Shown here: one piece after another, positions 3,529-15,662 of the stretch
Layout of the letters: each line of letters begins with the position of its first letter
Numbering within the stretch: position 1 is the first letter of the stretch
Assembly: GCF_026711005.1 (NCBI RefSeq)
Contig: NZ_JAPPVJ010000002.1
Coordinates: 682,001-746,000 of the forward strand
DNA length: 64,000 bases
Reading direction: 5' to 3'
From: Sphingobacterium sp. UT-1RO-CII-1
Lineage (GTDB): Bacteria > Bacteroidota > Bacteroidia > Sphingobacteriales > Sphingobacteriaceae
Notes under the pieces: generated by a model
The model's database searches: none
What the model was told of the DNA's origin: nothing
The model's input: the letters and a program-made list of their open reading frames with translations, nothing else
Translations under genes and position numbers: made by a program

Positions 3529-4095
3529 TTAAATAATTAACGAATACATACGACTAAGCTGTAGTCTTATCTTTTTAGAGGCGGTTGCCAATTGGTTCTT
3601 TACCGTATTTTTTGATGTTTTCAAGTCTTGCGATATTTCTTCGCAGCTATACCCGTCCAGTTTATTAAGCCTAAAAACCTGCTGTTCTTTATCGGGCAGA
3701 TGGTCTACCAACTTATTTATTAAATCTAGAAGGTCTTTACATTCTAAGTGCTCTTCCAAAGTATTACGATCTTCTGTCCAGGTGGGCAGTTGTTCATTTT
3801 TGTATCGGGTTGCCACCACGGATCTCCTAAATACCTTTATAAGGTGTCTTTTTATTAAAACAAATAAGAATGGGTAAATTCCGTTTGGCTCTTGTATAGT
3901 AATGCGCTTTTCGTGAAGTACTATAAAACATTCCTGAACGGCTTCTTCGGCTACAAAACTGTCTTTGCTAATCGAATATGCAAAGCGGTACAAGGTATCT
4001 TTATATTTTTCAAAGATCATACGGAAAGCCTTAGAGTCGCCGCTTTGAAATGAGCGGAACTCTTCAACTGATATATCCTTAACCTGCTGCTTCAT
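3529..4095 (-). CDS. ECF RNA polymerase sigma-70 factor (FecI-like)
   Basis: 188 aa from the ATG at 4095 (a TTG at 4101 is a less likely start). Region 2 is visible as 'FEKYKDTLYRFAYSISKD..AEEAVQECF', and region 4 as a helix-turn-helix 'LDGYSCEEISQDLKTSKNTVKNQLATA' near the C-terminus. This is the usual Bacteroidota ECF sigma size. It is the first gene of a sigma-fecR-susC set reading leftwards and should drive the downstream susC operon when the FecR protein releases it. Confidence 0.93.
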   Translation of the reverse strand: MKQQVKDISVEEFRSFQSGDSKAFRMIFEKYKDTLYRFAYSISKDSFVAEEAVQECFIVLHEKRITIQEPNGIYPFLFVLIKRHLIKVFRRSVVATRYKNEQLPTWTEDRNTLEEHLECKDLLDLINKLVDHLPDKEQQVFRLNKLDGYSCEEISQDLKTSKNTVKNQLATASKKIRLQLSRMYSLII

Positions 4096-4519: not shown

Positions 4520-5464
4520 CTATTTCAACAGCCTTAATTGTGTATCCCAGCCTGCATCCCCCATTTTATTATTGGTCGCAATAAATTTTTTTACATTATC
4601 TTCCATTCTTCGCCCTACATCTATCAGTTCTTTTAATTTATCCAGCTCTATTCCTTTATTTCTAAATCGGTACCATACCTCCTCTTCTAGTCTCAATTTT
4701 CTAAAATTTTTTATCGGCCAGTCTACATAGAGCATATTCACTTGCACGGTTTCCGAAATTTTCACTATCCAGTTTTTCGCCTCGCATTCTTCCAGCACAC
4801 CCCTGTCAGGATCGATAATTATTTTCTCGCCTGTCACCAGATACGCCAGATCATAGCGATCTACTTTTTCTAGAAACACAACATACAGCAACATTACCGC
4901 ACTGTTTTTAAGAAATGACGGTTCTTGCGGGTACTTTCTTCTCAGGTGCATCCGTAGGAAAGCTGTATTTCTGCTGTACTCCCACTTCTGCAAGTCGGAG
5001 ATCCCATTCTCCTCGCCCATCTCACCCTTAAACAGCTTATACTGCGGGTAAAAATAAACCACTACGGCATAGCTCACCACAGGCAGCAGGAAAAACAAAA
5101 ACTCTGTCGTCCAATAGCGCGACTGCATCAAACTAAGCTTATGCGTTTCCATTATCACATGAAGCAGCAAGGTATGCGCCCCTACCACTGGCAGCACAAC
5201 GACAATCAGGTAAAGTGCAAAATACAGCAACATGTTCATACGCCCCTTAAACACGTCCTCTTTCCAAAACATCCAGCTCGACGCACCGCATATCCAAAAG
5301 GTATACAGCAGCAGCAAAATCAGCGTACCACACAGCACCACAAAGGCCCTCTTCGACCACAGGTTTATGCTTTGCCCCGACACCAGCTTCCAGCCGTAAT
5401 TAATCAGTAGCGCCACCATTATATATAACAGTGTTAGGCAAATCAGTTTAGTTAGCTTCCTCAT
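4520..5464 (-). CDS. Unknown membrane protein with four TM helices and a soluble C-terminal domain
   Basis: 314 aa. Hydrophobic helices sit at about residues 5-27, 40-62, 80-105 and 123-142. A basic/aromatic cytoplasmic part of about 170 residues follows. The central soluble part ('LLYVVFLEKVDRYDLAYLVTGEKIIID...') alternates strands and helices somewhat like a LytTR-type output domain, but no diagnostic motif was found, so this is only a possibility. It is divergent from the AraC-family gene at 5741; the 276-bp space between them carries direct repeats and a dyad that could control both. I do not recognise the family. Confidence 0.7.
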   Translation of the reverse strand: MRKLTKLICLTLLYIMVALLINYGWKLVSGQSINLWSKRAFVVLCGTLILLLLYTFWICGASSWMFWKEDVFKGRMNMLLYFALYLIVVVLPVVGAHTLLLHVIMETHKLSLMQSRYWTTEFLFFLLPVVSYAVVVYFYPQYKLFKGEMGEENGISDLQKWEYSRNTAFLRMHLRRKYPQEPSFLKNSAVMLLYVVFLEKVDRYDLAYLVTGEKIIIDPDRGVLEECEAKNWIVKISETVQVNMLYVDWPIKNFRKLRLEEEVWYRFRNKGIELDKLKELIDVGRRMEDNVKKFIATNNKMGDAGWDTQLRLLK

Positions 5465-5571
5465 AAGTTATCCATGATTAGAGAATTGCCTATTAAAAGG
5501 CCATTCCACCATAAAACATAACATATAAAAACCTAATATAATCATTTTTATTTAAAACACTATTACTCAAC

Positions 5572-7018: not shown

Positions 7019-7510
7019 ATGAAAGCAGTAGTAGGCGATATTAACAAACATTTCAGGCAGCATCTGACAATCTATCTAGACGCTCTGGCGGTGCTCTGTT
7101 CTGCTCTGCTGATCTATCTTTTTGTACAAACAGCTTTGAGCAAAGTATTGCACCATGCGGTGTTTCGTATTCAGATGGGCAAGCAACCGCTCCCGAGCTG
7201 GTCAAAACCAATATTGGTTTATGCACTGCCCATTATTGAGTGGACGACCGTGCTGCTGCTCTTATTTAGGCGGACACGCCTTTGGGGGCTTCTGCTTGCA
7301 GGGTCTCTGCTGTTTGCCTATACCGTATATGCCTACCTGGCTTATAAAGAAGTGTATGGCTATGTGATCTGTGCCTGCGGGAAAGTGTTTGAAGATATGG
7401 GCTGGCGCGAACACTTTTATTTTAACGCCATACATACGCTGGTGGCGCTAGCAGGATTTTATTTCGTTTATAAAAGCAAAACATTAAAAGCAAACAATAA
7501 GAAAGAATAA
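7019..7510 (+). CDS. MauE/DoxX-like redox-associated membrane protein
   Basis: 163 aa with four TM helices (about residues 19-40, 61-83, 86-108, 134-153). Between helices 3 and 4 lies a 'CACGKVFEDMGW' loop with two conserved cysteines, as in MauE-like proteins that pair with thioredoxin/TlpA oxidoreductases. The family is tied to disulfide formation or transfer of reducing power across the inner membrane. Here a TlpA-type thioredoxin is encoded about 5 kb away, and the next gene on the same strand makes an exported peptide with two cysteines, so a role in handling that peptide's thiols is a reasonable inference. No direct evidence exists for electron partners. Confidence 0.8.
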   Translation: MKAVVGDINKHFRQHLTIYLDALAVLCSALLIYLFVQTALSKVLHHAVFRIQMGKQPLPSWSKPILVYALPIIEWTTVLLLLFRRTRLWGLLLAGSLLFAYTVYAYLAYKEVYGYVICACGKVFEDMGWREHFYFNAIHTLVALAGFYFVYKSKTLKANNKKE

Positions 7511-8120: not shown

Positions 8121-9476
8121 TTAACGCGGATTTTGTTTTAAACTACTTATTTCTACTACATCAAAAGGAAGAAGAAAAGTGTAACGCAAATCATTGGGAG
8201 GTAACTCATAAAGCTCCTTTCCTAACTTTCGTTGTAATGTTTTTTCAAATCTTTTATCTTGATTCAATCTTCTCAAATCCGACCATCGAATCCCTCCTCT
8301 AAAAAGTAGTTGTTTTTCACGTTCTTCTAAAACATAACTTAAAAGGCTTTCACTCTTCAAATCATCAGGCACGCCATAACTGCCCGCCACATATCGATTT
8401 TTCAATAAATGATTTAACGTGTGCCTTGCGTCAGAATCTTTATCTAATCTAACCTCACATTCAGCTTTTATTAAAAAAACTTCATCTCGAGCCAAACCAC
8501 CAAATATTGAAGTACCAGTGGCGTTATAATCTCCTTTATATTTTATCGTCTTATCGCCTTCCTTCACAAAAAACAAAGACTTCCTTAAGTCAATTTCTTT
8601 AAATTTTTCAAACAAAAGTGTATCCACTTTTGCTCTTGTTTGATTATGGACACTTGCTGTACCTAAACTAACTCCATAGAAAATGACTTCTTTATTTAAT
8701 AAAGTAAAAGGGAAAGGTAAATTCGCATCTAGTTCACCATAATCAATCAACTCATTATCAACATTTAGAGCTAAGTCAGCATACTTCAATCCTTTTTCAT
8801 AATCACCTATCACTAAATTTATGCGCGCTAACAAAGCATATGCAGCTTCTTTAGATGGTCGAACTGCAGTATGTGATTTCTCTGGAAGATATTGATGAGC
8901 AAGTGTTAGATCCTCTATAATCTGTTTATAAGTTTCCTTTACAGACGACCGATTGACGAGCTCATTGATGTCTGACTCAAGTTGCAGAGGCAAACCATAT
9001 TCTGAATCTTCCATTCCAATACTGTAATATGGACAATAAAGTTCTGCCAACTGAAATAATGCCATTCCCCTAAAAAAGTAGGCTTGCCCTTTTACATTAT
9101 CTCTATTCGTTTCAGACTGTCCTCCTAAATCCACCTTATCAATATGATCTAAAACTACATTTGAGTAGAATATTCGATAATATCCATAGGTCCAATCCTG
9201 TCTATTCTGTGCATTTTCATCCCAGATATAGGTATTTCGAACATCGACATTTCTCGCCTCCCAGTCTGCTTCTGTGAGGTAATAATAATCTGCTGCCACG
9301 TCACCTGCGGCTGGATAATGCATAAGCATTCTATCTTCGTAATCCATTAGTGCCTGTAGATCGCGGATATATCTCGGTATAGCCAATGATTGATCAGGTT
9401 TTTCATCCAAATATTCTGTACAACCGAATTGTAGAAGCCCCAATAAGCATATAATATTCAATAAAATACTTCTCAT
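8121..9476 (-). CDS. SusD/RagB-like outer-membrane lipoprotein
   Basis: 451 aa from the ATG at 9476, which gives a clean lipoprotein signal ('LLGLLQFGC', lipobox Cys at about residue 19). An ATG at 9494 would overlap the susC end. Typical SusD features are the early 'YLDEKPD' after the Cys, TPR-like helices with 'AYFFRGMALFQLAELYC', and a C-terminal 'EREKQLLFRGGIRWSDLRRL'. It would form the lid of the SusC channel encoded immediately upstream (4-bp gap). It is the last gene of the tlpA-susC-susD operon. The substrate is unknown; the TlpA and DUF6520 context points to peptides or redox-active ligands more than to a standard polysaccharide. Confidence 0.93.
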   Translation of the reverse strand: MRSILLNIICLLGLLQFGCTEYLDEKPDQSLAIPRYIRDLQALMDYEDRMLMHYPAAGDVAADYYYLTEADWEARNVDVRNTYIWDENAQNRQDWTYGYYRIFYSNVVLDHIDKVDLGGQSETNRDNVKGQAYFFRGMALFQLAELYCPYYSIGMEDSEYGLPLQLESDINELVNRSSVKETYKQIIEDLTLAHQYLPEKSHTAVRPSKEAAYALLARINLVIGDYEKGLKYADLALNVDNELIDYGELDANLPFPFTLLNKEVIFYGVSLGTASVHNQTRAKVDTLLFEKFKEIDLRKSLFFVKEGDKTIKYKGDYNATGTSIFGGLARDEVFLIKAECEVRLDKDSDARHTLNHLLKNRYVAGSYGVPDDLKSESLLSYVLEEREKQLLFRGGIRWSDLRRLNQDKRFEKTLQRKLGKELYELPPNDLRYTFLLPFDVVEISSLKQNPR

Positions 9477-9480
9477 AATC

Positions 9481-12400
9481 TTAAAATTTAACATTTACCC
9501 CTATTCCAATAGTTCTAGGGAAAGGTACTTGTCTTACCTCTGGATCTAAATCAGACTTTGTTTTTTTCCATATAATACCCAGGTGTCTAGCATACAGTGT
9601 GGCAGTGAGGCTTTTAACAAGCATATTTTTATTATTATTGCTTATTGAATAAGAAAAATTCACATCCTGTAAACGTATATGATCTCCCCTTTCAACAGTT
9701 GCTTCTGATTCTCGATAGAATTCATCTCTACGGTTATTGGATGGATATATCATAGAAGGGACAGTCGTATTGATTTCATCTCCCGGCTTTTGCCAACGCT
9801 GATAATAATCTCCATGAGAGAGCGACATACTTGGAGACAAAAGTGATGTATAATTAATAGTTTCACGTCGGAAATAGTAGCCACTTTTAAATTGGATATT
9901 TGCTGATAAAGAAAACCCTTTATAGCTGAAAGTATTTCGTAAAGCTCCAAAAGTTACAGGTAAAGCGGTACCATGAAACACTAAATCTTCTAAAGCAATA
10001 GCTTGGGTCAAACGTGCATAATCTTTAGACGGTTCTCCTTCTAAATATCCTATAGGATCACCTGTCTCAGGATCCAAACCTTTCCATTTGTAGCTCACCA
10101 TAGAATAAGCAGGCTGACCAACTATTGGAGATATCGTACTTCCTGACCCACCGACCCAAGAATTATAACTATTTGGCTCAACAAGATATTTCTCAACCGT
10201 ATTTTTATTTATTGATAAATTCACATGCCCAGACCAAGTAACCCCAGCATATTCCAATCTACTATCTAAAGTAATATCTAATCCTGTATTATTTACAATA
10301 GCACTATTTCTTGCAACAGAATTAAAACCTATAGTAGGATCAGTAGTAACCGAATTTATAATATCAGAAGCTTTCTTTTGATAAAACTCAATACTTCCTC
10401 TCAAAATATTTTTATTTAAACCAAAATCTACGCCTACATTTATGGTTCTTATATTCTCCCAACGCAAATCTGGGTTAGGAGGGTTATTGACAATAGCATA
10501 GGGTAACCTTGCTGTCCTAGTCACTCCCCTATAATCAATAGTCGTAACTGCTGCACCATTTGCCCAGACATTACCACTATACCCATATGTAGTACGGAGC
10601 TTTAGAAAGGAAATTAAATCAAACTGATAAAATGGTTCGTTACTTATATTCCATGCCCCTCCGACGGACCATAAAGGTGTCCACTTATCATTGGTTTTCA
10701 CACCAAATAAATTAGAAGCATCTCTTCTAGCACTAGCTGAAAAAGTATATCTGTCATTATAAGTATAAGCTGCATTAATATAAGAAGATACTAAACGGTG
10801 CACTGTACCATATTCGTTGTTAAAGCTTGGTATCAAAGCTCCTCCACTTAAATTATCATAAACAGGCAATCTATCAACAGAATTAACAAGGGATGTGAGT
10901 AAAAGATCGTCATCGTACCCAAAGGTTCTGTAACTATTTCCACGATTACTGGTATGTCTTAGCTCAAAGCCTGCGATTGCAGAAACAGAATGTTGACCAA
11001 ATCTATTATTATAATTGGCTTGTCCACGACCAGAATGCCCATGAATATTAGAATAATACCGATCTAAAATTCCTCCCAATGGTATCTGATGATTAATATT
11101 AGCTCCATTTATTTGTGTAAAACGATTGATGAGGTTACGTGTAAAATATGTTTTATCGCTATAATGATGTCTTTCTAGCGTAGGCTGGTATTCATATTGA
11201 TAGCTCATTTCTCCAGATAGCCCTTTCAATATTTGATATTTTACCCTTGTATTAAATAGAATATTACTCTTCTTAATCGTATTGTCTGCCAACGACAACT
11301 CTTCATAGGGGCGATAACGCCAATCTAATACTTCTTCTCTTCCTTCAACTATATCAAGGTAGCTCCCCCTAAGATCTTTCTCGACTACCAATCCATTTCC
11401 ACTTTCATCTACTAACCGTGCATAAGGGTATAAATTTCTGCCCGACATCATTTGCAAATCTCCAACATGATGATTGTTTTTTTGATCATTTAGTGAATAC
11501 CTCACTCCCATATCAATTTCCAGATTTTTCAACGGACGTATCGTATTCTGAAAATTTAGAGTCAACCTTGTCAAATCTCTCCCTACAGTATTTGCGCTGT
11601 TTTGATCGTACCCTATAGAAAATAACGAAGAATAATTATGCCCTCCTCCACTAAGATTTAAGGCGTACTGCTGGTTTAACCCTGCTCTGTAAAAATACTT
11701 GGATAAATCATTACGCATATCATGCGAAGAATAAAACTGCAGCTTCTCTTCAAGTTCATTATCGCTTACTTCCCCTTGTTTGTGTAATTCTAGTAGTTCA
11801 ATTACTGGTGTGAGCGGAGGTCTGTTGCTCGTATTATTTAACATAGAGTTATATGTCCCTTTATCAAAAAGAAACTGTTCCAGTTCAATATAATCTTTAG
11901 AGTTTATCCGAGGACTATAATATAAGTCTGGCTTTTGAATAAAAGTACTATTAGCAATAGCAGAAAGTTGCCATGGTGTATTATCTTTGCCTTTCTTTGT
12001 AGTGATAACCAGAACACCATTACCTGCCTTCGCCCCCCATATACTGGAAGCAGCAGCGTCTTTGAGTAAGGTTACACTTTCCACATCATTTGGATTGATA
12101 CTATTGATATCTCCTTCAAAAGGGAAATCATCCACTACAACAAGTGGACGCATATCTGTAAGCCCCAATGAGGCAACTCCTCGCACTATCATAGCAGCTT
12201 CATTGCCTCTCCTCTTATCAAACAGAAGGCCAGGCATAATACCATCCAAACGACTAATGACATCTGAGCCCATCTGCCTGTTAAATAATGTACTATCAAC
12301 AAATTCGAAAGAACCTGTAGCTCTTTCTTTCGGTATTCTTTGGTAACCAGTATTGACAATGATCTCTTCTATTTCTTTTTTTTCTGTGCTAAGAACTATT

Positions 12401-12684
12401 GAAAGTGGTAGATTATTATTTTCAAAATCTAATTCGAAAGAACTAAACCCCAGTTTACTGACCACTAAGGTTCCTTTTTTTACATTTACATTTAATGTAA
12501 ATTCACCTTCTTTATTTGTAACTGTCTTGATTTGACTTCCCTTAAGGGTAATCGTAGCATTCTCTACCACCTCAGAGCTATTACTTTGTACTCTACCCCG
12601 AATTATCGATTGTGCAAAAACGCTAGTTTTCACACTTAAAAACAAAGCGATCAGCACTGCATATTTAATAATATACCTACTCAT
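9481..12684 (-). CDS. SusC/RagA-family TonB-linked outer-membrane protein (no STN domain)
   Basis: 1067 aa from the ATG at 12684, which overlaps the tlpA stop by 8 bp (ATGAGTAG), suggesting translational coupling. The signal peptide ends in 'SVFAQ'. A carboxypeptidase-like regulatory domain follows, then the plug with 'NTGYQRIPKERATGSF', 'MIVRGVASLG' and 'IWGAKAGNGVLVITTKKGK', and a long beta-barrel ending 'GIGVNVKF'. There is no STN domain and no linked sigma/FecR pair, unlike the other SusC proteins in the window, so this operon is likely controlled differently (AraC candidate at 5741). Upstream starts at 12714 (TTG) and 12708 are less likely. Confidence 0.95.
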   Translation of the reverse strand: MSRYIIKYAVLIALFLSVKTSVFAQSIIRGRVQSNSSEVVENATITLKGSQIKTVTNKEGEFTLNVNVKKGTLVVSKLGFSSFELDFENNNLPLSIVLSTEKKEIEEIIVNTGYQRIPKERATGSFEFVDSTLFNRQMGSDVISRLDGIMPGLLFDKRRGNEAAMIVRGVASLGLTDMRPLVVVDDFPFEGDINSINPNDVESVTLLKDAAASSIWGAKAGNGVLVITTKKGKDNTPWQLSAIANSTFIQKPDLYYSPRINSKDYIELEQFLFDKGTYNSMLNNTSNRPPLTPVIELLELHKQGEVSDNELEEKLQFYSSHDMRNDLSKYFYRAGLNQQYALNLSGGGHNYSSLFSIGYDQNSANTVGRDLTRLTLNFQNTIRPLKNLEIDMGVRYSLNDQKNNHHVGDLQMMSGRNLYPYARLVDESGNGLVVEKDLRGSYLDIVEGREEVLDWRYRPYEELSLADNTIKKSNILFNTRVKYQILKGLSGEMSYQYEYQPTLERHHYSDKTYFTRNLINRFTQINGANINHQIPLGGILDRYYSNIHGHSGRGQANYNNRFGQHSVSAIAGFELRHTSNRGNSYRTFGYDDDLLLTSLVNSVDRLPVYDNLSGGALIPSFNNEYGTVHRLVSSYINAAYTYNDRYTFSASARRDASNLFGVKTNDKWTPLWSVGGAWNISNEPFYQFDLISFLKLRTTYGYSGNVWANGAAVTTIDYRGVTRTARLPYAIVNNPPNPDLRWENIRTINVGVDFGLNKNILRGSIEFYQKKASDIINSVTTDPTIGFNSVARNSAIVNNTGLDITLDSRLEYAGVTWSGHVNLSINKNTVEKYLVEPNSYNSWVGGSGSTISPIVGQPAYSMVSYKWKGLDPETGDPIGYLEGEPSKDYARLTQAIALEDLVFHGTALPVTFGALRNTFSYKGFSLSANIQFKSGYYFRRETINYTSLLSPSMSLSHGDYYQRWQKPGDEINTTVPSMIYPSNNRRDEFYRESEATVERGDHIRLQDVNFSYSISNNNKNMLVKSLTATLYARHLGIIWKKTKSDLDPEVRQVPFPRTIGIGVNVKF

Positions 12685-14254
12685 TTTGATCTCCCTCCTT
12701 GAGCACATATCCAAATTTGGTTAACTCCAAAGGAGCATTTACAAGATCGGATGTATTAATCCGCCCATCAGAGACCACAAACATATCGATCTCTCTTTCT
12801 TCTAACTCAAGCTGTAACCCTTGATTGACAAAACATTTCTGTAATGCATCAATATCCGTTAAATCATCGGGCAGGTCAAAGTCAATGCTATAATCAATGC
12901 TACTCTCATCAATGAGAAAAGGAACAGCTCCAGACTTAAGATTATTTAGAAAGTAGACTATATTATTTACCGATGTATTTTTAAAATAGTTCTTTGCCCC
13001 ATCGGCTGAAAGCCCAACTTTTTGTGGAATGCTTCTATCTTCTACTATTTCATTCAAAACTAAAACAACATTATTCTTGGATTGCAAGGATCTTTTAGTT
13101 TCATGATCACCATCCTTTACGATAAGACATGGCATTGAGAGTCTTACTTTTTCAGCATAAAACCCCGACAGCTCAGACAAATCATTATACATTCTTTTTA
13201 AAACCTGCTCTTTATTATAAGAAAGAGGTAAAACATATTCATAGGTATAGTCATATATGTTCCAGTTATAACTCGAATTTCTTAGATGATGAAATTCTAA
13301 TTTACTTGGATTATCTAAGAGCATAACACGTCTATTAGGCATCATTACACTAAATTCTGATTGCGAAGCAATTGATAACAGTCTAAGAATTGGATAATTA
13401 ATATAAAAACCATGTTTAACCTTACTTAGGGAGTCTATCCTTTCACCCGAAGGCAACATAAACCCATCTAAATAGCCCAATACACTGGTATAGTAAGCAG
13501 GCCTTTCATATTTAATATCCGAAAAAGTAAGTGAGAGTAAAGTAGTATCTAGTTTATCTCGGTATTTCGGCAAATAATATTCTTGCTTATTTACCATTCC
13601 GCCAATCACATCCTGATTAAGAGCCATTGGATTAGTAATATGCTCTAAAACACCTTCAGTATTAAAAATAGCAATATGAGGTAAACCCTGATGGGGTAAG
13701 AGCTCGTTTAAAACTTTATCTTCTACCACTGAAAAAAAGTTGTCTCCCAGTTCACGAATTTGTGGCGAAGCAGTTTTTGCAACAAATTTAGAAATCAATT
13801 CAGTTCCTTCATGAGTGACATTAATCAAAGCCACATCATCTGGATACGCATCTACTAATTTGTGCATTTTAGGCATAGATAAAATACAGCTCCCGCACCA
13901 CGTCGCCCAGTAATCTAAAATTATAACCTTCCCACGATAGTCGGCCAGGCGAATTTCTTTAGTCTTCCCTCCATATTCTACTACCTGCAAAGGCATATTC
14001 CATATTTCCTCAGGGATGGTATCCCCTATTTCTAAAGGCTTGATCTCCCCTATCCCAGTTGCCCCGCCTTGGCGGAGCTCCTGAGCCTTTGCTTCCACCA
14101 CGGAAGCAAAATTAAACAACACACAAAATATCGCTATAACCTGTAAGCCATAGACCATAGGCTTTTTAATATCGTCAGCTCTTTCTTTATCAAGCAGAAA
14201 ACCATTCGCTTCATTTAAGCTGTTTTGAGAGCTCCTTTTATTTTTAACTAACAT
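12677..14254 (-). CDS. TlpA-like thioredoxin-domain protein with long C-terminal extension
   Basis: 525 aa from the ATG at 14254; an ATG at 14158 just before the signal segment is an alternative. The frame stays open to 15121, but that extension runs through repeat arrays and is unlikely to be translated. The signal segment is 'VIAIFCVLFNFASVVEA'. A TlpA/AhpC-TSA thioredoxin domain spans roughly residues 85-235, with the redox motif 'WCGSC' (Cys 120 and 123) and a 'LPH' cis-proline loop. About 290 further residues have no recognised domain. It is the first gene of the tlpA-susC-susD operon and probably acts as a periplasmic disulfide reductase or isomerase for the system's ligand. Confidence 0.88.
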   Translation of the reverse strand: MLVKNKRSSQNSLNEANGFLLDKERADDIKKPMVYGLQVIAIFCVLFNFASVVEAKAQELRQGGATGIGEIKPLEIGDTIPEEIWNMPLQVVEYGGKTKEIRLADYRGKVIILDYWATWCGSCILSMPKMHKLVDAYPDDVALINVTHEGTELISKFVAKTASPQIRELGDNFFSVVEDKVLNELLPHQGLPHIAIFNTEGVLEHITNPMALNQDVIGGMVNKQEYYLPKYRDKLDTTLLSLTFSDIKYERPAYYTSVLGYLDGFMLPSGERIDSLSKVKHGFYINYPILRLLSIASQSEFSVMMPNRRVMLLDNPSKLEFHHLRNSSYNWNIYDYTYEYVLPLSYNKEQVLKRMYNDLSELSGFYAEKVRLSMPCLIVKDGDHETKRSLQSKNNVVLVLNEIVEDRSIPQKVGLSADGAKNYFKNTSVNNIVYFLNNLKSGAVPFLIDESSIDYSIDFDLPDDLTDIDALQKCFVNQGLQLELEEREIDMFVVSDGRINTSDLVNAPLELTKFGYVLKEGDQNE

Positions 14255-14383
14255 AGACCCCACTTCACCCCTAACCCCTCCGCAAATCGACCCAAACCAC
14301 CTTAAAATCAATCGATTAATGTACAGATCATTCTCCACCTTCCCCTCCTTGCAAGTAAAACGCAGCAATCTATTTACCAGTTC

Positions 14384-14581
14384 TTCGAGTCGTGTTCGAC
14401 ACTTGTTCGACAATCCTTCGAGTGCTCTTCGACAGTCCTTCGACTGGGCTTCGAGTCGGCTTCGACACTTGTTCGACAATCCTTCGGGTGCTCTTCGACT
14501 CGCCTTCGACTGGGCTTCGAGTCGCACTCGAACAGCACTCGAACAACACTCGAACAGCAGTCGAACACCAGTCGAACAAAT
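14384..14581. repeat. Array of eighteen 11-bp units (TTCGA-N6) with terminal inversion
   Basis: From 14384 every 11 bp starts a new unit without slippage. Thirteen units read TTCGA-N6 (one is TTCGG), then five read as the reverse orientation (CTCGAACA.., GTCGAACA..). Units 1-6 and 7-12 form a 66-bp higher-order repeat: unit 8 equals unit 2, unit 9 equals unit 3 and unit 12 equals unit 6. The turning point is a perfect dyad TTCGAGT-CGC-ACTCGAA at 14516-14532. The array lacks stop codons in several frames, so it produces spurious reading frames on both strands. It lies 130 bp upstream of the tlpA start. Confidence 0.93.
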
Positions 14582-14792
14582 GTGCACCAAAGTACGACCC
14601 AATCTCGAAGCCACCCCGAACCATCCGGCTACCCTAGCCGAAGCGCTCTTAGTGTATGGCCTAAGTATTAGCCAAGTATGCGTGAAGTAGTAACAGTGTA
14701 TAAGGAGTGTATTAAAAGACATTACACTAGCCATGCTCCATGACCGCTTCATAACTGCTGGTTTCTTGCCTTTATCACCCTTTTTCACACAC

Positions 14793-14924
14793 TTTGTTGT
14801 GCCGTTCATGTGTCGTTCATGTGTCAAACATGTGTTGTTGTTGTGCCGTTCATGTGTCAGATATGTATCGAGCATGTGTCGCTGTTGTTCATAGACGGCT
14901 TTTAGAAAGTGTAGCCCATGTGTC
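14793..14924. repeat. Second 11-bp-period array (GTTCATGTGTC units)
   Basis: GTTCATGTGTC occurs at 14804, 14815 and 14848, and related 11-mers fill the register between and after them (14793, 14826, 14837, 14859, 14870). A final GCCCATGTGTC at 14914-14924 is still in phase, exactly four periods after the unit at 14870. Most units contain CATG or a near match. The period equals that of the first array but the sequence differs. Confidence 0.85.
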
Positions 14925-14957
14925 GAAGCACGTTTCAATTTAAAGGCATCGCCAGTT

Positions 14958-15101
14958 GTCCCGCGGGCGCGGGACTTCTGAACATTACAACTAAACTGAT
15001 AATAAAACTTGCCTAAAAAAGACAGCATTAGGCACCTAAAGCCATAAAGGGAAGAGTCAGAGTATTTTATCAGGGGTTTATTAAGGGCATAACAATCCCC
15101 T
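14958..15101. repeat. Three-hairpin intergenic element, copy A
   Basis: It opens with the palindrome GTCCCGCG-GG-CGCGGGAC (14958-14975), followed by TGCCTA/TAGGCA (15010-15015 and 15029-15034) and AGGGG/CCCCT (15072-15076 and 15097-15101). A second copy with the same order of stems is at 22020-22127. It is probably a dispersed REP-like or structured RNA element. Confidence 0.6.
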
Positions 15102-15183
15102 TTGCGTAAAAATCGCATCATAGTAACATAGATTTATAAAATTCATAAATGGTTTATAAAAAATAAAAATCCTATATCGGGGC

Positions 15184-15256
15184 GCCCTCGTCCATAGGAA
15201 TACATAAGCATAGTTTGTAGCAAATAAACTATGCATACCCCATTATTCTGGAGGGC
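15184..15256. other. Nested hairpin element
   Basis: An outer stem GCCCTC (15184-15189) / GAGGGC (15251-15256) encloses a perfect 9-bp stem GCATAGTTT (15208-15216) / AAACTATGC (15226-15234). It lies downstream, on the minus strand, of the candidate sRNA. There is no T-run, so it is not a standard terminator. Confidence 0.5.
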
Positions 15257-15287
15257 AAAAAATGTTTTGAAGTAGTTGTTTTTTCAT

Positions 15288-15327
15288 CATTGCTCCTTAG
15301 TTTATAATCGTAGCCGATTGAGCAATG
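15288..15327. other. 8-bp perfect inverted repeat
   Basis: CATTGCTC (15288-15295) and GAGCAATG (15320-15327) flank a 24-nt loop. It lies between the nested hairpin and the candidate sRNA, 3' of the sRNA on the minus strand. Confidence 0.4.
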
Positions 15328-15352
15328 AATCTATGTGAAAGGAATATCCATC

Positions 15353-15441
15353 AAAAAAAGAGATGGGACAAACCTTATTTTCCAACGAGGGTCGTAGGAG
15401 AACCTTAAGCGAAAACAAGAGAATGCCCATCTCTCCTTCTG
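15353..15441 (-). ncRNA. Candidate ~89-nt small RNA with its own promoter and terminator
   Basis: On the minus strand a TACCTTTG -7 element (15452-15445) is followed within a few bases by AGAAGGAGAGATGGG. The sequence ends with CCCATCTCT and six more T. AGAGATGGG (15434-15426 on this strand) pairs with CCCATCTCT (15367-15359), so the closing stem also makes the terminator. Inside is an apical hairpin ACGA-CCC-TCGT extended by CC/GG. The layout is closing stem, open bubble, apical stem. There is no SRP GGAAGC motif. It is untested but has promoter, structure and terminator in the right order. Confidence 0.55.
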
Positions 15442-15444
15442 CTA

Positions 15445-15452
15445 CAAAGGTA
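15445..15452 (-). promoter_or_regulatory. -7 promoter element of the candidate sRNA
   Basis: TACCTTTG on the minus strand matches TAnnTTTG exactly. The expected -33 region has TTCAG instead of a clean TTG. Confidence 0.5.
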
Positions 15453-15662
15453 GAGATTAGGCATTGATCTCCTGAACTTGCGCTTGATGAAAATTTCCTA
15501 CGTTTTCGTTAGCAAGATTCAGCGTCAATAGCCAAATAACATAGCGGAAACAGCTATAAATACCACTTCCACTTTTCAAAGGTAAGCATAATTTTGATTT
15601 TTACAAATTTTACCGTAGACGATTTGAATTATATATATAAATCAACTCATGTATAATGCGTG

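Follow-up and report, generated by a model that had tools for sequence, protein, structure and literature searches.

What does a long, strictly paced run of 11-bp units do at the head of a tlpA-susC-susD operon of Sphingobacterium sp. UT-1RO-CII-1, and is it kept for its DNA, for its RNA or for the peptide that it encodes? The run lies in a stretch of 64,000 nucleotides of contig NZ_JAPPVJ010000002.1 (hereafter the window), and the 18-unit array that the original prediction described there is confirmed (Table 1). Its 11-bp register is constant, turn included, with TCGA at 14385+11k as far as 14517 and then at 14528; as predicted, 13 units point one way (starts at 14384+11k; 12 TTCGA and one TTCGG) and five are reversed (TCGAA at 14528+11k). 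The core TTCGA had been ascribed to every unit and is found in 17 of the 18, the unit at 14483 reading TTCGG, and the supposedly perfect dyad at 14516-14532 has two perfect 7-bp arms but CGC between them. The predicted 66-bp super-repeat is borne out (14383-14448 and 14449-14514 are 91% identical), and TRF reports a period of 66 with 92% matches. The pattern TTCGA-N6-TTCGA-N6-TTCGA occurs 11 times in the window, compared with none in 100 dinucleotide shuffles.

The periodicity extends past the TTCGA units to about 14637, and the scan for self-similarity at lag 11 (match of at least 0.55 in 66-bp windows) finds a second such stretch in the leader at 14756-14890. Elsewhere in the source genome, 240 kb contained no lag-11 region at the strict threshold and five at a laxer one, no more than the 6-21 seen for other lags. 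The suggestion that all cores share one face of the helix fails for relaxed B-DNA, in which at 10.5 bp per turn an 11-bp pitch drifts by about 17 degrees per unit, and would apply to the whole array only if the DNA were underwound to about 11 bp per turn.

Table 1. Features of the tlpA-susC-susD locus, in coordinates of the window.
Feature	Position	Strand	Remarks
TTCGA array	14384..14576	none	forward, 13 units at 14384-14520; reversed, 5 units at 14528-14576; one TCGA centre per 11 bp
11-bp self-similar stretch enclosing the TTCGA array, degenerate units included	14364..14637	none	lag-11 scan
Second 11-bp array, ATACAC/ATACTT type	14652..14729	none	85-90% identical copies elsewhere
Third 11-bp array, ACACATG type	14794..14888	none	44-bp higher-order repeat
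tlpA ORF, 814 aa	12677..15121	-	all three arrays inside; thioredoxin-type domains at residues 384-489
Leader part of the tlpA ORF, residues 1-346	14084..15121	-	ends with predicted signal peptide (...FCVLFNFASVVEAKA followed by QE)
susC-like gene	9481..12714	-	Plug and CarboxypepD_reg-like domains
susD-like gene	8121..9494	-	

The array had been placed just before tlpA-susC-susD; it is found instead within the tlpA ORF itself, in an extension of 346 codons. This ORF begins with MMRFLRKGD, crosses the three arrays and then enters a hydrophobic, signal-peptide-like stretch before Q347 (14081-14083), the signal peptide being called by eye and by a simple script rule. Pfam matches of the product (AhpC-TSA, Redoxin and Thioredoxin) fall at residues 384-453, and the gene order continues with susC and then susD. 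The prediction of stop-free frames on both strands applies to the array alone and not to whole extensions, where only the gene frame is open: in 25 leader ORFs (9834 codons), picked for an open frame through the array, the gene frame has no stops, as against 539 and 758 in the other forward frames and 289-469 in the antisense frames. The 11-bp pacing holds for leaders in their entirety, with a lag-11 identity of 0.430 vs 0.250 in the mature parts. In an AlphaFold2 model, pLDDT stays under 50 along the entire leader, which says little because the model is poor overall (mean 40.7, five sequences).

Several other elements surround the leader. A 14-codon ORF, MKKQLLQNIFCPPE followed by a stop, precedes it at 15243-15287 (minus strand) and may encode the ribosome-stalling leader peptide of an attenuator; comparable short ORFs ending in ...FCPPE or ...CCPPD occur at ten other loci (L039-L044, L047, L048, L051 and L052), where hairpin-like and T-rich sequence, read by eye, comes after the short ORF. 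Upstream of the short ORF, Pedo-repair RNA (RF01715) has full-length matches far below threshold at 15318-15523 (minus strand) and in L040 at 7122-7324 (minus strand), the scores being 19.2 and 22.6 bits and the cut-off 150. The DUF805b RNA motif occurs in L042 at 3725-3759 and 5446-5480 (minus strand), one match above and one below the Rfam cut-off. A known RNA family for the array was set aside, the candidates being these sub-threshold Pedo-repair matches upstream and DUF805b in L042 elsewhere. A GC palindrome, TCCCGCGGGCGCGGGA, at 14959-14974 encodes SRARGTTG of the leader, and the first residues of the mature protein (PRQGGATG) are likewise encoded by a palindrome resembling it; TCCCGCGGGCGCGGGA is part of a repeat of about 52 bp that has many sites in the genome.

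A BLAST search of the source genome (4.5 Mb, 30 contigs) with positions 14300-15000 recovered six further near copies at 90-94% identity and one diverged array, and found the 52-bp GC-palindrome repeat at additional places. All six copies are read in a single frame from the same start, into TlpA at four loci (L040, L042, L043 and L044) and into SusC at two (L039 and L041), and the array-holding segment is 192 codons long in all seven copies. The leader DNA within this genome is 90-95% identical, though the attached TlpA and SusC are non-homologous; leaders of other genomes are 81-94% identical. Seven further loci (L047-L053) carry leaders of the same kind, of about 80 residues and without an array, so that export needs no array. 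In six of these array-less leaders (L047 and L049-L053), the stretch KERLLRIARSDG is encoded by a repeat that recurs there.

To what extent do arrays follow tlpA and susCD genes in other genomes? In a set of 93 genomes of the genus, the array region has a BLAST match in 43 and at least four exact units occur in 22, while a reversed control pattern matched none of the 93. The search for at least four exact units supplied the 56 array loci analyzed here. The predicted recurrence with tlpA/susCD stands in altered form: 27 of the 56 arrays lie in long ORFs, 25 of which have a SusC or TlpA match, but they lie within these genes and not upstream of them. The two remaining ORFs, of 281 and 466 codons (L084, near a contig end, and L106), have no SusC/TlpA match. 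Arrays outside long ORFs number 29 (19 between codirectional, four between divergent and six between convergent genes), L081 being a broken leader that precedes a partial susC, and at 21 of the 56 loci both a leader and a DUF6266 match are absent. Random placement with a unit number varying as in neutral satellites, named in advance as the outcome that would undo the predicted link, is approached in that 29 of 56 arrays fall outside leaders, but eight of these lie upstream of DUF6266 genes and leader indels keep the frame. Pairwise alignment of related leaders gives 175 indels, 132 of them a multiple of 3 in length, a count in which one event may appear in several pairs; of the distinct sizes, 35 of 57 are multiples of 3, the commonest being 33 bp, or three array units.

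In array loci, which were selected for TTCGA arrays, chains of at least four identical 5-mers were counted 444 times at an 11-bp spacing, compared with 0-9 times at spacings of 9, 10, 12 and 13, and include the further cores ACACATG, GGTAC, ATACAC and CTTAC. Two-run arrays in 70 genus loci are convergent (TTCGA then TCGAA) in 57 cases and divergent in none, and 48 of the 57 have a 7-bp gap at the turn, such that TCGA centres stay 11 bp apart. A five-unit pattern scan of GTDB found at least 115 stretches. Among the matches listed outside the genus (115 loci), 32 two-run arrays are convergent and five divergent, and arrays of several other Bacteroidota have the same turn or paired cores. Among the matches listed for other bacteria, 67 of 80 loci lack an ORF of at least 110 aa over the array, and some of these arrays are runs of near-identical units that are not necessarily related.

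Over 424 unit slots the consensus is STTCGRSWSNK, in which TTCG is almost fixed and is followed by G/C, A/T and G/C positions without preference within each class. Sense strands contain the motif both as TTCGA and as TCGAA, within the same genes. Where the gene sense reads TCGAA, every codon phase keeps CGAA at 98-100% (phases of 48, 57 and 59 units; n = 164); where it reads TTCGA, the core is looser, at 65-100% per base (69 units, 23 per phase). Between related leaders, variable columns number 5 of 324 in cores, 76 of 315 in spacers and 1374 of 4147 in flanks, and C<->G swaps make up 34 of the 107 two-letter changes within arrays, compared with 107 of the 1134 within flanks (p ~2e-9 by Fisher's test), all of these columns coming from related sequences and being non-independent. 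Exchange of units inside arrays could also make the cores alike. Among the seven copies of the source genome, 17 of 200 array columns are variable, compared with 24 of 176 and 67 of 200 in the flanks, and pN/pS is 1.84 in the array and 0.54 and 0.59 in the flanks; the protein is therefore not the conserved thing. By these counts and the spacer pairing given below, what is conserved is double-stranded DNA rather than protein or RNA.

A functional peptide, with the encoded 11-residue repeats forming a protein domain ahead of the signal peptide, would fit the open frame, the predominance of indels in multiples of 3 and the 11-residue repeat that 11-bp units yield. We consider it very unlikely nonetheless, as cores are conserved in every codon phase, wobble positions included, as the orientation and proportion of the array differ by locus and give different peptides, and as pN/pS of the array exceeds 1. 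Just as unlikely is a transcribed hairpin, in which the converging runs would form a long mRNA stem controlling translation or stability. The TTCGA and TCGAA runs are able to pair, and RNA from either strand of the array folds more stably than its dinucleotide shuffles (z -4.35 and -5.86), since the cores are self-complementary; moreover, at the turn 38 of 47 cases have complementary letters at one position pair, where 27 were expected, and this speaks most strongly against a reading in terms of DNA alone. However, complementarity of facing spacers is 0.378 in register, not clearly higher than the 0.31-0.37 obtained when they are shifted by one to three units, which led us to reject a hairpin or cruciform as the main conserved thing despite the negative folding scores; in addition, the runs are unequal, the turn shifts (5/13, 10/9, 4/16), and no curated RNA family fits.

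Eleven arrays sit 204-321 bp upstream of a DUF6266 gene (eight of them within the 56 genus loci, at 217-301 bp), with an HTH_17 match at nine of the 11 loci; in the source genome, the order of this home cassette is HTH_17, array, DUF6266 and DUF5675, and the HTH_17 protein of the strain is encoded at C14:340785-341096. DUF6266 matches occur in 65 of the 93 genomes, with up to 11 in one genome. Among 19 DUF6266 loci hand-picked from the match list, an 11-bp region lies within 700 bp upstream in 17, while spacings of 9, 10, 12 and 13 are found in 1, 1, 1 and 0 of the 19; a TTCGR chain is present in one locus only (L294), the rest having other cores, many with a turn. By eye, an HTH-like ORF stands just upstream of the array in 11 of the 19 and, less well placed, in two more; five loci (L280, L282, L284, L285 and L287) have none beside the array, and L283 was assigned to neither class. 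Ten HTH-like ORFs of DUF6266 loci were compared with Pfam, giving an HTH family in five, above the cut-off in three.

The same linkage appears when HTH_17 homologues are the starting point: 22 of 26 close homologues (E ≤ 1.9e-14) have a TTCGA array about 225 bp or less from the end of the match, by coordinates compared by eye. The other four (L295, L296, L302 and L304) lack a TTCGA array, as do all 11 weaker HTH homologues fetched. Three genomes (G002, G084 and G089) hold leader arrays with no HTH match at E ≤ 1e-8; in G089 a diverged HTH-like ORF adjoins a TTCGA array, and in G002 the first two DUF6266 matches lie at contig starts. Several contigs of G002 and G039 start or stop beside DUF6266 or HTH genes, as if the assembly broke at arrays.

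The second array of the window has relatives of its own, with arrays 85-90% identical to it lying some 210 bp before a gene of 252 aa in three genomes (loci L048, L316 and L317). The 252-aa protein has no Pfam match; a 64-aa gene adjoins the ATACAC-type array in each, and in L048 a DUF5675 gene comes next downstream. A small hydrophobic protein is encoded downstream in L316. In the cassettes of L276-L294, L045, L078, L085, L087 and L089, the order runs from a response regulator or membrane LytTR-like gene through an HTH-like gene and the 11-bp array to DUF6266 and often DUF5675.

An array that is conserved at the DNA level and recurs with tlpA and susC is probably protein-binding. Our reading of the array, of its in-frame location and of its linkage to HTH_17 and DUF6266 genes, which we would give about an even chance of being correct, is that the arrays are phased operators for small HTH (MerR/Xis-like) proteins, copied into the translated leader of tlpA or susC. 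The array would be a double-stranded DNA recognition element with asymmetric sites (approximately STTCGRSWSNK) every 11 bp, reversed once to give two converging runs. Its binder would most likely be a small HTH_17 (MerR/Xis/AlpA-like) protein acting cooperatively, with about one subunit set per turn; in the simplest view, the array is a long operator on which the HTH protein would sit head to tail, one per 11 bp. The gene of the binder would often be the immediate neighbour of a home array, after which comes the DUF6266 gene, and home copies of the TTCGA and ATACAC types would have been absorbed into the leader cassette that heads tlpA or susC, whichever is the first gene of the operon. There the array DNA would also be held open in one frame, since translation would begin about 1 kb upstream and must reach the signal peptide, which would explain both the frame-keeping size changes and the exported proteins with long, odd pre-sequences. 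Through the leader copies, proteins from DUF6266 cassettes would come to control tlpA/susC operons, and we infer that an HTH protein binds the array and that its binding would control transcription through the leader.

Alternatively, the arrays may be non-functional in-frame repeats, dispersed like Rickettsia palindromic elements and spread with a duplicated leader, with selection only keeping the frame. The occurrence of arrays in intergenic DNA both in the genus and among the matches listed for other bacteria, the joining of nearly identical leaders to unrelated tlpA or susC genes, the lack of protein-level constraint on the array peptides and the seven sister leaders without an array all agree with this view. 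We nevertheless regard it as rather unlikely: cores are far less variable than spacers and flanks, C<->G swaps are in excess, the polarity of the turn is 57:0, 11-bp arrays stand upstream of nearly all of the DUF6266 loci sampled, mostly with other cores, and the 240 kb taken from elsewhere in the source genome hold no lag-11 region at the strict threshold. Similarly, core and spacer do not drift alike and unit number does not vary freely, as they would in a neutral satellite. A recombination hotspot, in which leader repeats would help to swap or homogenise the fronts of tlpA and susC, would account for several pairs in which the leader is more alike than the gene (0.94 vs 0.77, 0.90 vs 0.76 and 0.92 vs 0.77) and for non-homologous genes being joined to the leader at the signal peptide. 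In two genomes (G084 and G090), however, the leader is no more alike than the gene behind it (0.81 vs 0.83 and 0.86 vs 0.88), the shared stretch reaches well past the array, and array-less leaders are shared as well, so that we hold this explanation to be improbable.

For the operator reading, related arrangements exist. The HTH_17 fold is related to the MerR-type DNA-binding domain, lambda Xis filaments and PhoB boxes are among the precedents, and R1 parC has two sets of five repeats. Tandem 11-bp repeats are bound by CarH, of the MerR family, and by R1 ParR (PMC9304148, PMC9426499). CarH operators place tandem 11-bp direct repeats under several MerR-type DNA-binding domains, with three or four repeats at the promoter and the consensus nnnnTnnACAn (PMC9304148). 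The array shares the tandem 11-bp direct repeats of such CarH/MerR-type operators but has 10-20 TTCGA units, one reversal and a place inside coding sequence, and its unit (STTCGRSWSNK) lacks TnnACA. In parC, the 11-bp direct repeats are bound by the small DNA-binding protein ParR (PMC9426499); parC is a plasmid centromere beside parM, whereas the present arrays have many chromosomal copies, in leaders and beside DUF6266. LytTR systems of the Bacteroides type have two 11-bp direct repeats of the TCCGGTATTCA type, 11 bp apart, near a membrane LytTR gene and upstream of the regulator's own promoter (PMC6193735). The 11-bp direct repeats are shared, and in the source genome a membrane LytTR protein is encoded close to the home array, but the repeat sequences differ, and in place of two repeats upstream of a LytTR operon promoter there are many units, in leaders or at the stated distance before DUF6266. 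The membrane LytTR protein was rejected as a general binder, with close homologues in only 7 of the 93 genomes.

Repeats carried in coding DNA offer another comparison. Rickettsia palindromic elements lie in frame inside protein genes, each as one homologous palindrome of about 100-150 bp found in many unrelated genes. The array is likewise an in-frame repeat within an ORF; however, 25 of the 27 ORF arrays are in ORFs with a SusC or TlpA match, core, length and turn position vary between loci, and the 11-bp phased units hold one gene position, pair with an HTH gene and are conserved at the DNA level in all codon phases. Phage iterons in replication-initiator genes are likewise short tandem repeats in coding DNA, and a search with the strict array motif found 11-bp repeats in seven viral contigs; those listed have near-identical units in other genes (which we take, by eye, to be replication initiators), unlike the array here, and a simple tandem satellite or phage origin was rejected on these grounds. 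PARCEL elements are tandem repeats within the genes of membrane-targeted proteins; they show dyad symmetry and encode a 25-residue amphipathic repeat (PMC2996958). The present unit is an 11-bp DNA unit, or 11 residues, and occurs in every codon phase. A literature search of limited breadth found no publication dealing with such arrays, and none on DUF6266 or on TlpA/SusC proteins with long extensions ahead of the signal peptide. Phased repeat operators are already known as a kind; by these comparisons, the length of the array, its single reversal, its position in a translated leader and its link to many cores lie outside the families tested.

A broader and more tentative proposal, which we think possible but well short of an even chance, is that of a diversifying recognition system, in which small HTH proteins of one family, each encoded next to a convergent 11-bp array with a core of its own in a DUF6266 cassette (TTCGA, ATACAC, CTTAC/GTAAG and others), would have copies of these arrays stacked in tlpA/susC leaders, so that several proteins would address the same operon from within its coding sequence. 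If the operator reading is true, protein-binding arrays of up to about 200 bp lie within DNA that is translated, the reading frame having been adapted to the array, and this would account for the hundreds of odd pre-signal residues in many TlpA and SusC precursors of the genus. Pairing of an HTH_17 gene with an array core, in a recognition that would have diversified many times, would make the evolution of specificity testable, and the pairing of arrays with HTH genes would open a way to study how SusCD-type uptake systems are regulated.
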